Shown here piece after piece: positions 16,000 through 19,777 of a stretch of 40,766 nucleotides of DNA. The stretch's first letter is position 1. Each line of letters starts with the position of its first letter. The stretch is from assembly GCA_031264145.1 (NCBI GenBank), contig JAISEK010000018.1, positions 1 through 40,766 on the forward strand, in the 5' to 3' direction. The notes under the pieces are model-generated. The model had not been told where the DNA came from, ran no database searches, and saw only the letters and a list, made by a program, of their open reading frames with translations. The position numbers and the translations under genes are program-made. The DNA is from Deltaproteobacteria bacterium (GTDB lineage: Bacteria > Desulfobacterota > Desulfarculia > Adiutricales > Adiutricaceae).

Positions 16000-17226
16000 A
16001 TGCCACCTCCCCCACCCCAGGAGCCCTCCCAGGAGCCCGTCTTCGGCGGCCCCAAGCCCCCGCTGTGGACGCCGACCTTCGCGACCTTCATCCTGATAAA
16101 CTTCTTCATATTCCTGGGCTTCGACATGCTCCTGCCGACGTTGTCGGTGTATCTGGACGCCCAGGGCTGCTCGAAGGAGGAGATCGGCCTGATCTTCGGC
16201 TCCTTCGCCGTCTCCTCGGTCTTCAGCCGCCTGATGAGCGCCCGCCTCTCCCGCCGGCTGGGGGCCACCAGGGTCCTGAGGTGCGGGCTGGCCATCTGCT
16301 TCGTGGGCTCGATTACCTTCTTCCTGGTCCCCCACCAGCTCTTCTACGCCCTGGCCAGGCTCCTCCACGGGGCCGGGGTGGGCCTGACCTCCACGCTCAT
16401 GGTCTCCATGGCCGCCCAGGTCATCCCGCCCCAGCGCCTTGGCGAGGGCCTGGGCTACCTCGGCCTGGGGGCCACGGTGGCCCTGGCCATCGGCCCGCTG
16501 GTGGGCCTGGACCTGGCCCAGACCCACGGCTACAGGGCCATGTTCTCGTCGGTCGCCCTGTGCTCGGTCATCGCCGGGCTCATCAGCCTCTCGCTGCCCT
16601 TCATCCGCCTGGCCTCGGACCTGGCCCCCGATCCCCCCGGCCTCGGGTCCCTCATAGAGACCAGGGCCCTGGCGCCGGCCTCGCTGATCTTCATCATGGG
16701 CTCGGCCTCCTGCGCCGTGACCGCCTTTTTGGCCATCTACTGCCAGGAGATCGGCCAGGGCGACGCGGCCATTTTCTTCGTGGTCTCGACCATCGGGACC
16801 CTCTCGGCCAGGATGACCACCGGGCGGCTCTATGACCGCTACGGCCCGGCCATGGTCATCCCCCCGGGGGCCGTGGTCCTCATCGCCTCCATCCTCATGC
16901 TGGTGGCCTTCCCGTCCAGGGGCCCCATGACCGTCGCGGCCATAGTCTACGGCCTGGGCATAGGCTCCCTCTTCCCGGCCATCCAGGCCCTCACCCTGGC
17001 CTCGGTCCCCGCCGGCCGCCGCACGGCCGCCTCCGCGGCCTTCTTCATCTGCTTCGATCTGGGCATAGGCCTGGGCACCCTGTCCCTGGGCCTCCTGGCC
17101 GGCCACTTCGGCACCTTCAGGGTGGTGTACCTGGCCTCGCCGGTCATGCTGGCCTTCCTGGTCGTGGCCTTCTTCGCCATCGTCCCCAGGCGGGCCGGGC
17201 CCGGGCACCCAGGGGCCTCTGGCTGA
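16000..17226 (+). CDS. MFS transporter
   Basis: A 408-residue major facilitator with about 12 hydrophobic segments. It has a cytoplasmic Pro-rich N-terminus, the inter-helix 2-3 motif region (MSARLSRRLGATRVLRCG), and a repeated counterpart in the second half (MTTGRLYDRYGPAMVIPPG). The substrate cannot be told from sequence; the overall look is of a proton-linked drug or sugar exporter. ATG at 16000 was chosen over an earlier in-frame start because the frame before it carries the terminator hairpins and lacks membrane segments; GAGAGG lies upstream. Its stop TGA overlaps the ATG of the RnfC-like gene (TGATG), so the transporter is translationally tied to the redox genes. Confidence 0.85.
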   Translation: MPPPPPQEPSQEPVFGGPKPPLWTPTFATFILINFFIFLGFDMLLPTLSVYLDAQGCSKEEIGLIFGSFAVSSVFSRLMSARLSRRLGATRVLRCGLAICFVGSITFFLVPHQLFYALARLLHGAGVGLTSTLMVSMAAQVIPPQRLGEGLGYLGLGATVALAIGPLVGLDLAQTHGYRAMFSSVALCSVIAGLISLSLPFIRLASDLAPDPPGLGSLIETRALAPASLIFIMGSASCAVTAFLAIYCQEIGQGDAAIFFVVSTIGTLSARMTTGRLYDRYGPAMVIPPGAVVLIASILMLVAFPSRGPMTVAAIVYGLGIGSLFPAIQALTLASVPAGRRTAASAAFFICFDLGIGLGTLSLGLLAGHFGTFRVVYLASPVMLAFLVVAFFAIVPRRAGPGHPGASG

Positions 17227-18383
17227 TGGCGGGCCGGGACCACAGGGTCCTGAAGGCCTGGCCCCAGGCCGCCTCGGCCAGCCTGTCCTTCGATGGCCGC
17301 CCGGCCCCCGGGCTAAAGCCGGGACGCCCGGTCTCGCGGGGGCAGCTGCTGGCCATCTCCAGGGCCGCCGGCCAGGGCGACCTGCGGGCCCCGTTCAGCG
17401 GCACCGTGGCCAGCCTCTCCCCCGGCCTGGTCGAGCTGGCCTTCCGGGAGGGCGTCTCGGGCCAGGTGCCCCGCCCCCTTGACCTGGGATCGGTCGGGGG
17501 CGCCGATCTGGCCCCGGCCCTGAAGTCCCTGGGCCTGGATCTGCCCCGGCCGGCCCCCCCTGGCCAGCCGGCCCTCATATCCGCCCTGGACCCCGAGCCG
17601 GGCCTTGGCCTGGCCAGGGCCCTGTGGCAGGACCAGAGGACGACCCTCCAGCGGGGCCTGGCCCTCCTGGGCCGCCTTTGGCCGGACAGCGAGCTGGTCG
17701 AGATCCTGCCGCCCAGGCTCGATCCCCTTGGCGCCGGCCGGGCCTTGCGGTTCAGGGAGGGCTTCCCCATGACCCTCCCGTCCCTCCTGAGGATGAGGGT
17801 CCTGGGCCTTCCCTGGCCCAGCCCGGACGGGGTGGTCGGGCCGGAGCGGCTCTGGGCCCTGGGGACGGTGGCCCGCTCGGGCCTCCCCCTGACCCTCGTC
17901 CCCGTCTCCGTGCAGGGCTTCCACTACCTGGCCCCGCCGGGCCTCAGGCTCTCCGAGGTCCTGGCGGCCGTGAACCTCAAGCCCCTCCTGGGCGATTTGG
18001 CCCTCCTGGGCGGCCTGGCCACCGGCCGGCCCACGGCCAGGCTCGGGCGCGGCCTGCGGGCCTCCGACTTGTCCCTCCGGCTCATCAGGGCCGGCCGCCT
18101 GCCCCGCCCCCCGGCCCCCTGCAGGCTCTGCGGCCTCTGCCGCCAGGCCTGCCCCCTGGGGCTCCAGGTGGATCTGGCCGGCCAGTTCCCCCTGGAGGGG
18201 TGGGCCAGGCTGCCGGCCAAGGTCCTCGGCGCCCTGGCCGGCTGCGCCGGCTGCGGGGCCTGCGCCCTGGCCTGCCCCAGCCTGAGGCCCCTGCTGGCGC
18301 TGGCCCAGGCGGCCGGGGCCGACGACCCCTACGGGCGGGCCCCCTGGGGCCCCCCGGCTGGCCCCGGCCCGCGGCAGCAGTGA
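17226..18383 (+). CDS. Reduced RnfC-like iron-sulfur protein
   Basis: 385 residues. The N-terminal lipoyl-like domain matches RnfC (GLKPGRPVSRGQLLAIS, then LRAPFSGTVASLSPG, about 29-70). A short, divergent middle follows, then two [4Fe-4S] motifs of the RnfC tail: CRLCGLCRQACP (about 299) and CAGCGACALACP (about 340). In known RnfC proteins the middle binds FMN and NADH through a Gly-rich GGAGFPT-type loop; I cannot find it here, and the chain is shorter than usual (about 440 residues or more). It may thus relay electrons without oxidising NADH. It overlaps both neighbours (TGATG and GTGA). The codon use is extremely GC-rich, like the next gene. RnfC kinship is clear; function is open. Confidence 0.75.
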   Translation: MAGRDHRVLKAWPQAASASLSFDGRPAPGLKPGRPVSRGQLLAISRAAGQGDLRAPFSGTVASLSPGLVELAFREGVSGQVPRPLDLGSVGGADLAPALKSLGLDLPRPAPPGQPALISALDPEPGLGLARALWQDQRTTLQRGLALLGRLWPDSELVEILPPRLDPLGAGRALRFREGFPMTLPSLLRMRVLGLPWPSPDGVVGPERLWALGTVARSGLPLTLVPVSVQGFHYLAPPGLRLSEVLAAVNLKPLLGDLALLGGLATGRPTARLGRGLRASDLSLRLIRAGRLPRPPAPCRLCGLCRQACPLGLQVDLAGQFPLEGWARLPAKVLGALAGCAGCGACALACPSLRPLLALAQAAGADDPYGRAPWGPPAGPGPRQQ

Positions 18384-19777
18384 CCGGGCCGATCCTGAGG
18401 CTGAGGCCTGGGCCCTACGCCGTCCGCGGCCCCCTGGGACAGGAGGCCGCGATGGCCCTGGCCCTGGCCCCCTGGCTGGCGGCCCTGGCCCTGGCCGGAC
18501 CAGCCTGGCCGCTCATGGCCCCCCTGGCCGCCCTTCTGGCCGCGGCCGCCCTGGGGCCGGAGCCTGGCCGGGGACGGCCGCTGGGCCGCGCGGTTCTCGG
18601 CGCCGGGCTCGCGACCGTCCTGGCCGGCCCACTCCTGGGGCCGGCCCCCGCCGCCCTGTCCGGCCTGGTCCTGGCCCTGACGGCCAGGGGGGGCGGCCTC
18701 TTCAGGCACCCATTCCTCCCGGCCGCCCTGGCGGGCCTGCTGGCCGGCCTGGTGGCCCCCGGCCCCCAGCCGGGGTCCTGCCCCCCCGTCTGGCCGGCCC
18801 TCCTGCCGGCCGCCCTGGCCTCGCTGGCCCTGGGCCGCCAGAGGCCGGCCGCCGCCCTCCTCCCCTTCCCCCTCTGGATCCTGGCCGCCCTCCTCGGCCC
18901 CAGCCTGGGCCTCGGGCCAGCGGACCTGCCGTCCCTCCTGCCCTTCTGGCTGGGCCTGGCCTTCTGCCTGGGCCGCCAGTTCTGGCCCACGGGGAGGCTG
19001 GCCCCGCCGGCCGTCCTCGTCACCGTGGCCGGGCTGGCCCCGGTCCTCGGGCCCGGAATGAGGATCCCGGCCCTGGCCCTCCTGTGCCTCGCAGAGACCG
19101 CCCTGAGCCTCCGGGCCAGACGGGCGGCCGGGCGTCTGGCCGCCAGCGACGGGGAGGGCCGCGAATGGCCCGAGGACCCGCTCCTGGTGGCCATCAGGCT
19201 GTGCGGGAGGGAGGCGGACGACCCGGCGGCCCTCTACCAGGGGCCGCCCGGCTGCCGTCTGGCGGCGACCCTGGACGGCGGGCCCCAGAACTGCCCCCAG
19301 GGCTGCCTCTCCTTCGGGGACTGCCTGGCCGCGTGCCCCCACGGGGCCATGAGGCCGGCCGGGCCGGGCCTTCCGCCCAGGCTGGACAAGGCCCGCTGCC
19401 GGGGCTGCGGGGCCTGCGTCCCGGCCTGCCCCAAGGGGCTGATGGTCCTGCGGCCCAGGACGGCCTCCTTCTCGGTGGCCTGCCGGGGGGCGGCCAGGCT
19501 CAGGGACATGGACCGGCTCTGCCCCAGGGGCTGCCTCGGCTGCGGACGCTGCCGCAAGGCCTGCCCTTCCGGGGCCATCGGCCGCCTGGGCCTCCTGGCC
19601 CCGCCGGAGGCCGACCCGGACATCTGCCGGGAGAGCCTCCCCGGCTGCGGCCTGGCCTGCCGAAGGGCCTGCCCCCGCTCTCTCCCCGGCCCGGCCATGG
19701 GCCGCTTCGACGGGGAGCGGGAGGCGGCCCAGGCGCCAGGGGCCGGCGTCCCAGACCGGCCAGGCCAGGGCCGGTAG
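18380..19777 (+). CDS. RnfD-like membrane protein fused to RnfB-type ferredoxin domain
   Basis: 465 residues starting with GTG that overlaps the previous stop (GTGA). Residues 1 to about 270 carry several membrane helices with RnfD hallmarks (LRLRPGPYAVRGPLG at the start; LSGLVLALTARGG and HPFLPAAL inside). The SGAT motif that carries covalent FMN in RnfD is not seen. Residues 305-465 match the ferredoxin half of RnfB: CPQGCLSFGDCLAACP, CRGCGACVPACP, CPRGCLGCGRCRKACP and a final C-x6-C-x3-C-x3-CP, so up to four clusters. The RnfB N-terminal cysteine domain is missing. I know of no standard RnfD-RnfB fusion. Subunits A, E and G are absent from the window. Confidence 0.7.
   Translation: MTGPILRLRPGPYAVRGPLGQEAAMALALAPWLAALALAGPAWPLMAPLAALLAAAALGPEPGRGRPLGRAVLGAGLATVLAGPLLGPAPAALSGLVLALTARGGGLFRHPFLPAALAGLLAGLVAPGPQPGSCPPVWPALLPAALASLALGRQRPAAALLPFPLWILAALLGPSLGLGPADLPSLLPFWLGLAFCLGRQFWPTGRLAPPAVLVTVAGLAPVLGPGMRIPALALLCLAETALSLRARRAAGRLAASDGEGREWPEDPLLVAIRLCGREADDPAALYQGPPGCRLAATLDGGPQNCPQGCLSFGDCLAACPHGAMRPAGPGLPPRLDKARCRGCGACVPACPKGLMVLRPRTASFSVACRGAARLRDMDRLCPRGCLGCGRCRKACPSGAIGRLGLLAPPEADPDICRESLPGCGLACRRACPRSLPGPAMGRFDGEREAAQAPGAGVPDRPGQGR

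Follow-up and report, generated by a model that had tools for sequence, protein, structure and literature searches.

The Rnf complex is usually seen as an all-or-nothing pump of six subunits. Electrons pass from ferredoxin to the polyferredoxin of RnfB, then to the small ferredoxin domain of RnfB and the [2Fe-2S] cluster of RnfA/E, and onward through RnfG, the riboflavin of RnfD, the two clusters of RnfC and flavin mononucleotide (FMN) to nicotinamide adenine dinucleotide (NAD) (PMC12174285). In Desulfovibrio alaskensis G20 the genes are arranged as dhcA-rnfCDGEABF (PMC4841214). Here we analyse an operon that lies at positions 16000-19777 of a stretch of DNA from a Deltaproteobacteria bacterium of the family Adiutricaceae (GenBank assembly GCA_031264145.1, contig JAISEK010000018.1; the whole stretch, 40,766 nucleotides, is called the window). 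The operon encodes a major facilitator superfamily (MFS) transporter, an RnfC-like protein and a fusion of RnfD to RnfB (Table 1). Named relatives of the source are Candidatus Adiutrix and deltaproteobacterial metagenome-assembled genomes, i.e., Adiutricaceae, which are termite-gut bacteria and putative acetogens (PMC9137090). We consider it probable that the two redox genes are a remnant of a Desulfovibrio-type rnf operon whose products now act as a non-pumping, membrane-tethered and ferredoxin-linked relay to a partner other than NAD.

Rnf folds of the two redox proteins

On its own, the RnfC-like protein reaches only generic [4Fe-4S] models in Pfam. A profile built from 21 relatives matches the solved RnfC 7zc6_C over its full length (E = 6e-32), and the AlphaFold2 model (predicted local distance difference test, pLDDT, 92) aligns with RnfC 9eri_C over 365 residues at Z = 30.5, compared with a Z of about 24 for NqrA. 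As modelled, the whole length of the protein adopts an RnfC fold. An earlier note, made from the letters of the DNA, had read two [4Fe-4S] motifs and no GGAGFPT-type FMN/NADH loop in this protein. Both observations hold across the family: the two four-cysteine motifs are invariant in 21/21 relatives and the loop is deleted in all family members aligned. NqrA of the Na+-NQR is also an RnfC homologue and is still part of its complex, having lost its redox cofactors (PMC12174285); unlike NqrA, the RnfC-like protein of Adiutricaceae keeps both [4Fe-4S] motifs.

The fusion protein was modelled using 22 relatives. Its membrane half is predicted to have an RnfD/NqrB-type fold of ten helices, with Z scores of 13.8 to RnfD 8ahx_D and about 12 to NqrB in addition to the match to 8rbq_D in Table 1; the next fold class, urea and ammonium channels, reaches a Z of about 8, well below RnfD. 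The RnfD profile of Pfam, PF03116, is silent on this domain, and an hhalign comparison with RnfD is collinear and weak (pairwise E = 0.006, probability 6.5%; an MFS control aligns 15 columns). The RnfD assignment is accordingly based on the predicted fold. The C-terminal half is the polyferredoxin of RnfB, with cysteines for up to five [4Fe-4S] clusters. The transmembrane helix of RnfB and its PF04060 cluster domain are absent from the fusion protein, which also gives no match to PF00175, the NAD-binding domain of NqrF. Because the two halves match two different Rnf subunits, the fusion is real. Folds and profile matches thus bear out the earlier description of an RnfD-like membrane part joined to the cluster-rich half of RnfB and lacking the SGAT motif for covalent FMN, which occurs in 0/22 fusion proteins. 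The same note had raised an unrelated NapH/polyferredoxin family as an alternative assignment; RnfB and RnfD/NqrB give the best matches by profile and by fold, with no NapH profile among the matches listed.

Table 1 Features of the operon, in positions of the window; frames and overlaps (1 and 4 bases between the three genes) are exactly as first noted
Feature	Positions	Strand	Details
MFS transporter, 408 residues, first operon gene	16000..17226	+	PF07690, E 1.9e-38; stop TGA 17224-17226
RnfC-like protein (C), 385 residues	17226..18383	+	ATG 17226; stop 18381-18383
Two [4Fe-4S] motifs of the RnfC-like protein (C299, 302, 305, 309; C340, 343, 346, 350)	18120..18278	+	All eight Cys in 21/21 sequences
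RnfD-RnfB fusion protein (DB), 465 residues	18380..19777	+	GTG 18380; stop TAG; AlphaFold2 pLDDT 78.6; Foldseek/VIA matches; family search
RnfD-like membrane domain of the fusion, residues 13-258, ten predicted helices	18416..19153	+	Z 14.3 to 8rbq_D
RnfB C-terminal polyferredoxin domain of the fusion, residues 264-442, 20 Cys	19169..19705	+	vs 9eri_B, E 2.7e-38, Z 16.2

Distribution and constraint in the Adiutricaceae

In a sample of 37 Adiutricaceae genomes from 11 genera, the RnfC-like protein occurs in 33 and a strong match to the fusion in 30. Of the 21 loci that were read, nearly all have the two genes side by side, the exceptions being Ca. A. intracellularis and loci at contig ends, and a neighbourhood this regular is far beyond chance. 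Both genes persist even in the endosymbiont Ca. A. intracellularis, though on different contigs, with the fusion gene placed after a thiD-like gene. We found no report of an RnfC-like/RnfD-RnfB unit in the open-access literature searched; it is a real and conserved Rnf-derived variant, and apparently one not described before.

Some standard Rnf parts were not detected in the same genomes. RnfA/E (PF02508) gave no match in the source genome or in 37/37 family genomes, and standard RnfD (PF03116) gave none in 37/37 family genomes; the four control genomes were positive in both searches. Sister families of the same order and class do have standard RnfD. The genome search proposed in the earlier note returned no complete rnf operon, no RnfA/E and no standard RnfD in the source genome, where the sole RnfC_N match is a PduS-like protein. 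That PduS-like protein (G000:C112; L001) has the GGAGFPT motif and apparently lies in a microcompartment locus. The statement that A, E and G are absent can thus be extended to the genome and the family for RnfA/E, and is restricted to the neighbourhood for G. Judged by the defining features of the Rnf complex family, the unit falls outside it.

Among the fusion proteins, 19 of the 20 cysteines are present in 22/22 sequences and the remaining one in 21/22. Ratios of nonsynonymous to synonymous substitution (dN/dS), computed within genera by NG86 and to be read with the partly high dS in mind, are 0.14-0.49 for the RnfC-like protein and 0.20-0.41 for the polyferredoxin half, both where dS is unsaturated, and 0.08-0.35 for the MFS protein. 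The membrane half of the fusion is the fastest-evolving part, with dN/dS of 0.38-0.72 and 29-55% identity within a genus. In strain Smac51, which has a complete genome, the fusion frame (L054:7389-8093) is 235 residues long; about 200 residues of the membrane domain are lost, and the N-terminal GPF motif and the polyferredoxin are kept. The Fe-S parts are what selection keeps, and the membrane part looks like an anchor. In another genus, g8 (L055, L081, L083), the fusion proteins lie in frames where very long stretches of low-complexity or repeat-rich sequence precede the membrane domain and also occur inside it.

These data bear on whether the pair is a decaying Rnf relic without present function, which we regard as improbable. 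The weak constraint on the RnfD-like domain and its deletion in Smac51 would fit decay, as would the absence of both genes from one genome (G012) and the state of the smallest genome (G026), in which the RnfC-like match falls into two overlapping pieces and the search for the fusion came back empty. Over the sequences aligned, however, the 8 + 20 cluster cysteines are nearly invariant. The dN/dS ranges of the RnfC-like protein and the polyferredoxin given above, the presence of the RnfC-like protein in 33/37 genomes, and the survival of the pair in a reduced endosymbiont genome despite the splitting of the operon likewise argue against decay. The earlier argument for selection is therefore upheld for the Fe-S parts, and its alternative of a degenerating Rnf applies to the membrane domain only.

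A trans-membrane electron exporter feeding extracytosolic flavoproteins, as described for NQR/RNF-like systems by Meheust et al. 2021, is similarly improbable. The architecture is the same, since those flavinylated systems combine an RnfD/NqrB membrane domain and a cytosolic electron-input domain in one chain (PMC8238504). The Adiutricaceae unit differs in having the RnfB polyferredoxin rather than NqrF as its input domain and in retaining RnfC. Against export, the flavinylation motif is missing, and no flavin partner is seen nearby: no FMN-binding or ApbE gene, neither of which was searched for genome-wide, is among the identified conserved neighbours. The rapid evolution of the membrane domain, and its loss in Smac51, also argue against export.

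Relation to Desulfovibrio-type rnf operons

Several pieces of evidence point to a Desulfovibrio-type operon, with a decaheme cytochrome, rnfCDGEAB and apbE, as the most likely ancestor of the redox pair: (i) Within the phylum, the RnfC proteins closest to the RnfC-like protein are those of three loci, L113-L115, which score 212-216 bits vs 134 or less elsewhere. (ii) In the tree, RnfC of this type joins the RnfC-like proteins of Adiutricaceae (100/99). (iii) The FMN loop is entirely missing from both groups, at a shared position. (iv) The polyferredoxin half of the fusion scores 167-173 bits against RnfB of this type and 86 or less against the other Rnf loci read, and its 20 cysteines line up with the Desulfovibrio-type pattern. 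(v) The order C-D-...-B is common to both; the operon at L114 runs ten-heme c3-type cytochrome, RnfC, RnfD, RnfG, RnfE, RnfA, RnfB, ApbE. Unlike the Desulfovibrio-type Rnf (L113-L115, D. alaskensis G20), which has D, G, E, A, a full-length B, the decaheme cytochrome and ApbE, the Adiutricaceae operon is without G, E, A, the cytochrome and the N-terminus of RnfB, and D is fused to B.

If the DNA between the 3' end of rnfD and a point within rnfB were deleted from such an operon, and rnfG, rnfE and rnfA with it, rnfC followed by an rnfD-rnfB fusion would be left. One such event would explain the gene order, the fusion point and all of the operon losses at once. PF04060, present in Desulfovibrio-type RnfB, is gone from the fusion. 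This would be expected in the absence of its electron partner, RnfA/E, given that in Rnf this small ferredoxin domain passes electrons to RnfA/E (PMC12174285).

An origin from the Rnf found in the same order and class is disfavoured; there, RnfB carries a fused pyridine-nucleotide oxidoreductase, and RnfC falls elsewhere in the tree. In these operons (L119:5780-7888, L120:3782-5869) the added unit is an NfnB/GltD-like module of Fer4_20 and Pyr_redox_2 that would bind flavin adenine dinucleotide and NAD(P); their RnfC has no FMN loop, which suggests a shift of the pyridine-nucleotide site from RnfC to RnfB.

The FMN-loop and SGAT losses probably precede the reduction of the operon. In complete Rnf operons of phylum relatives, picked by similarity and with some loci overlapping, 21/22 RnfC proteins have no FMN loop and 22/22 RnfD proteins have no SGAT. 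The missing GGAGFPT loop and SGAT motif, taken in the earlier note as signs of reduction, thus do not serve as such. Since the Desulfovibrio-type RnfC of L113-L115 lacks the FMN/NADH loop within a complete operon, NAD is questionable as its partner.

Proposed relay and alternative functions

The Adiutricaceae unit has the RnfC, RnfD and RnfB folds in common with canonical Rnf (A. woodii 9eri, C. tetanomorphum 7zc6, A. vinelandii 8ahx). Unlike canonical Rnf, it is without the FMN/NAD loop, the covalent-FMN motif, PF04060, any detected RnfA/E, and an RnfG in the operon. With the trans-membrane carriers (RnfA/E and the small RnfB domain) and the NAD end thus missing or undetected, no trans-membrane electron path is visible. 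We propose that the unit would sit at the inner face of the membrane, with the RnfD-like part as its anchor. The polyferredoxin half would take electrons from reduced ferredoxin, or give electrons to it. It would also exchange electrons with both clusters of the RnfC-like protein, which would be docked on that anchor. The partner would be other than NAD because the RnfC-like protein has no FMN loop, and the MFS protein probably carries the substrate or product of the partner reaction.

The MFS protein is efflux-like by its nearest NCBIfam models, PRK05122 and PRK12382, with scores far below the cut-offs. Its gene lies directly upstream of the RnfC-like gene in 14/21 loci, and these are all of the loci (14/14) with upstream DNA from genera other than g6; the other seven comprise five of genus g6 and two at contig ends. 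At least one locus of genus g8 (L055) has two MFS copies upstream. In genus g6 the redox genes are placed after rnhB-yraN-rsmI-like genes, and both are kept without an operon-type MFS gene. Relocation of that gene within g6 was considered and rejected, as the nearest g6 MFS sits in another clade. The transporter is therefore dispensable to the redox pair; the coupling to a transporter claimed earlier is a conserved linkage outside g6 and does not extend to that genus. A direct role, in which electron transfer through the pair would drive or gate the transporter, is highly improbable. The one-base overlap of the MFS and RnfC-like genes and the constancy of the linkage outside g6 would favour such redox-coupled transport, but g6 keeps the redox genes without this MFS, and MFS proteins are not known to need redox input.

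The pair could instead activate or reduce a metalloenzyme at low potential, e.g., by reductive activation of a corrinoid protein of the Wood-Ljungdahl pathway or by supplying electrons to nitrogenase, although we think this unlikely. PduS, a relative of RnfC, acts in cobalamin reduction. Acetyl-CoA synthase is found in 27/37 family genomes, including 12/12 of the good ones, and a capacity for nitrogen fixation has been reported for Adiutricaceae (PMC11257099). On the other hand, each of the 37 genomes already has a RACo-family activator, so a corrinoid-activation role is not required of the pair, and no corrinoid- or nitrogenase-type gene is linked to the operon. Many family genomes also have a second RACo-family paralogue, whose match (G000:C128:1455-2159 in the source genome) contains one in-frame stop and was possibly read past the gene end.

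Several points weigh against the non-pumping relay that we favour. One genome that is 93% complete, G012, has neither gene. No redox enzyme consistently adjoins the pair, the neighbours being housekeeping genes that differ between genera. RnfG is absent from the identified conserved neighbours, PF04205 and ApbE not having been searched genome-wide. Finally, we infer the single deletion from gene order only, as we infer both the electron donor and the acceptor. More tentatively, and with rather less than even confidence, we suggest that in this family an internal operon deletion turned an ion-pumping Rnf into a domesticated electron-input module with a new acceptor: a ferredoxin-linked reductase that does not pump and is dedicated to a transporter-linked pathway.

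The absence of the FMN loop from Desulfovibrio-type RnfC bears on what the Desulfovibrio-type Rnf reduces. In the Adiutricaceae, a conserved, family-wide remnant without a detectable trans-membrane redox core shows that the cytoplasmic electron module of Rnf can be inherited alone, with a separate function that can be tested. It also calls for caution in putative termite-gut acetogens, where matches to rnfB or rnfC alone are insufficient to annotate energy conservation by Rnf.

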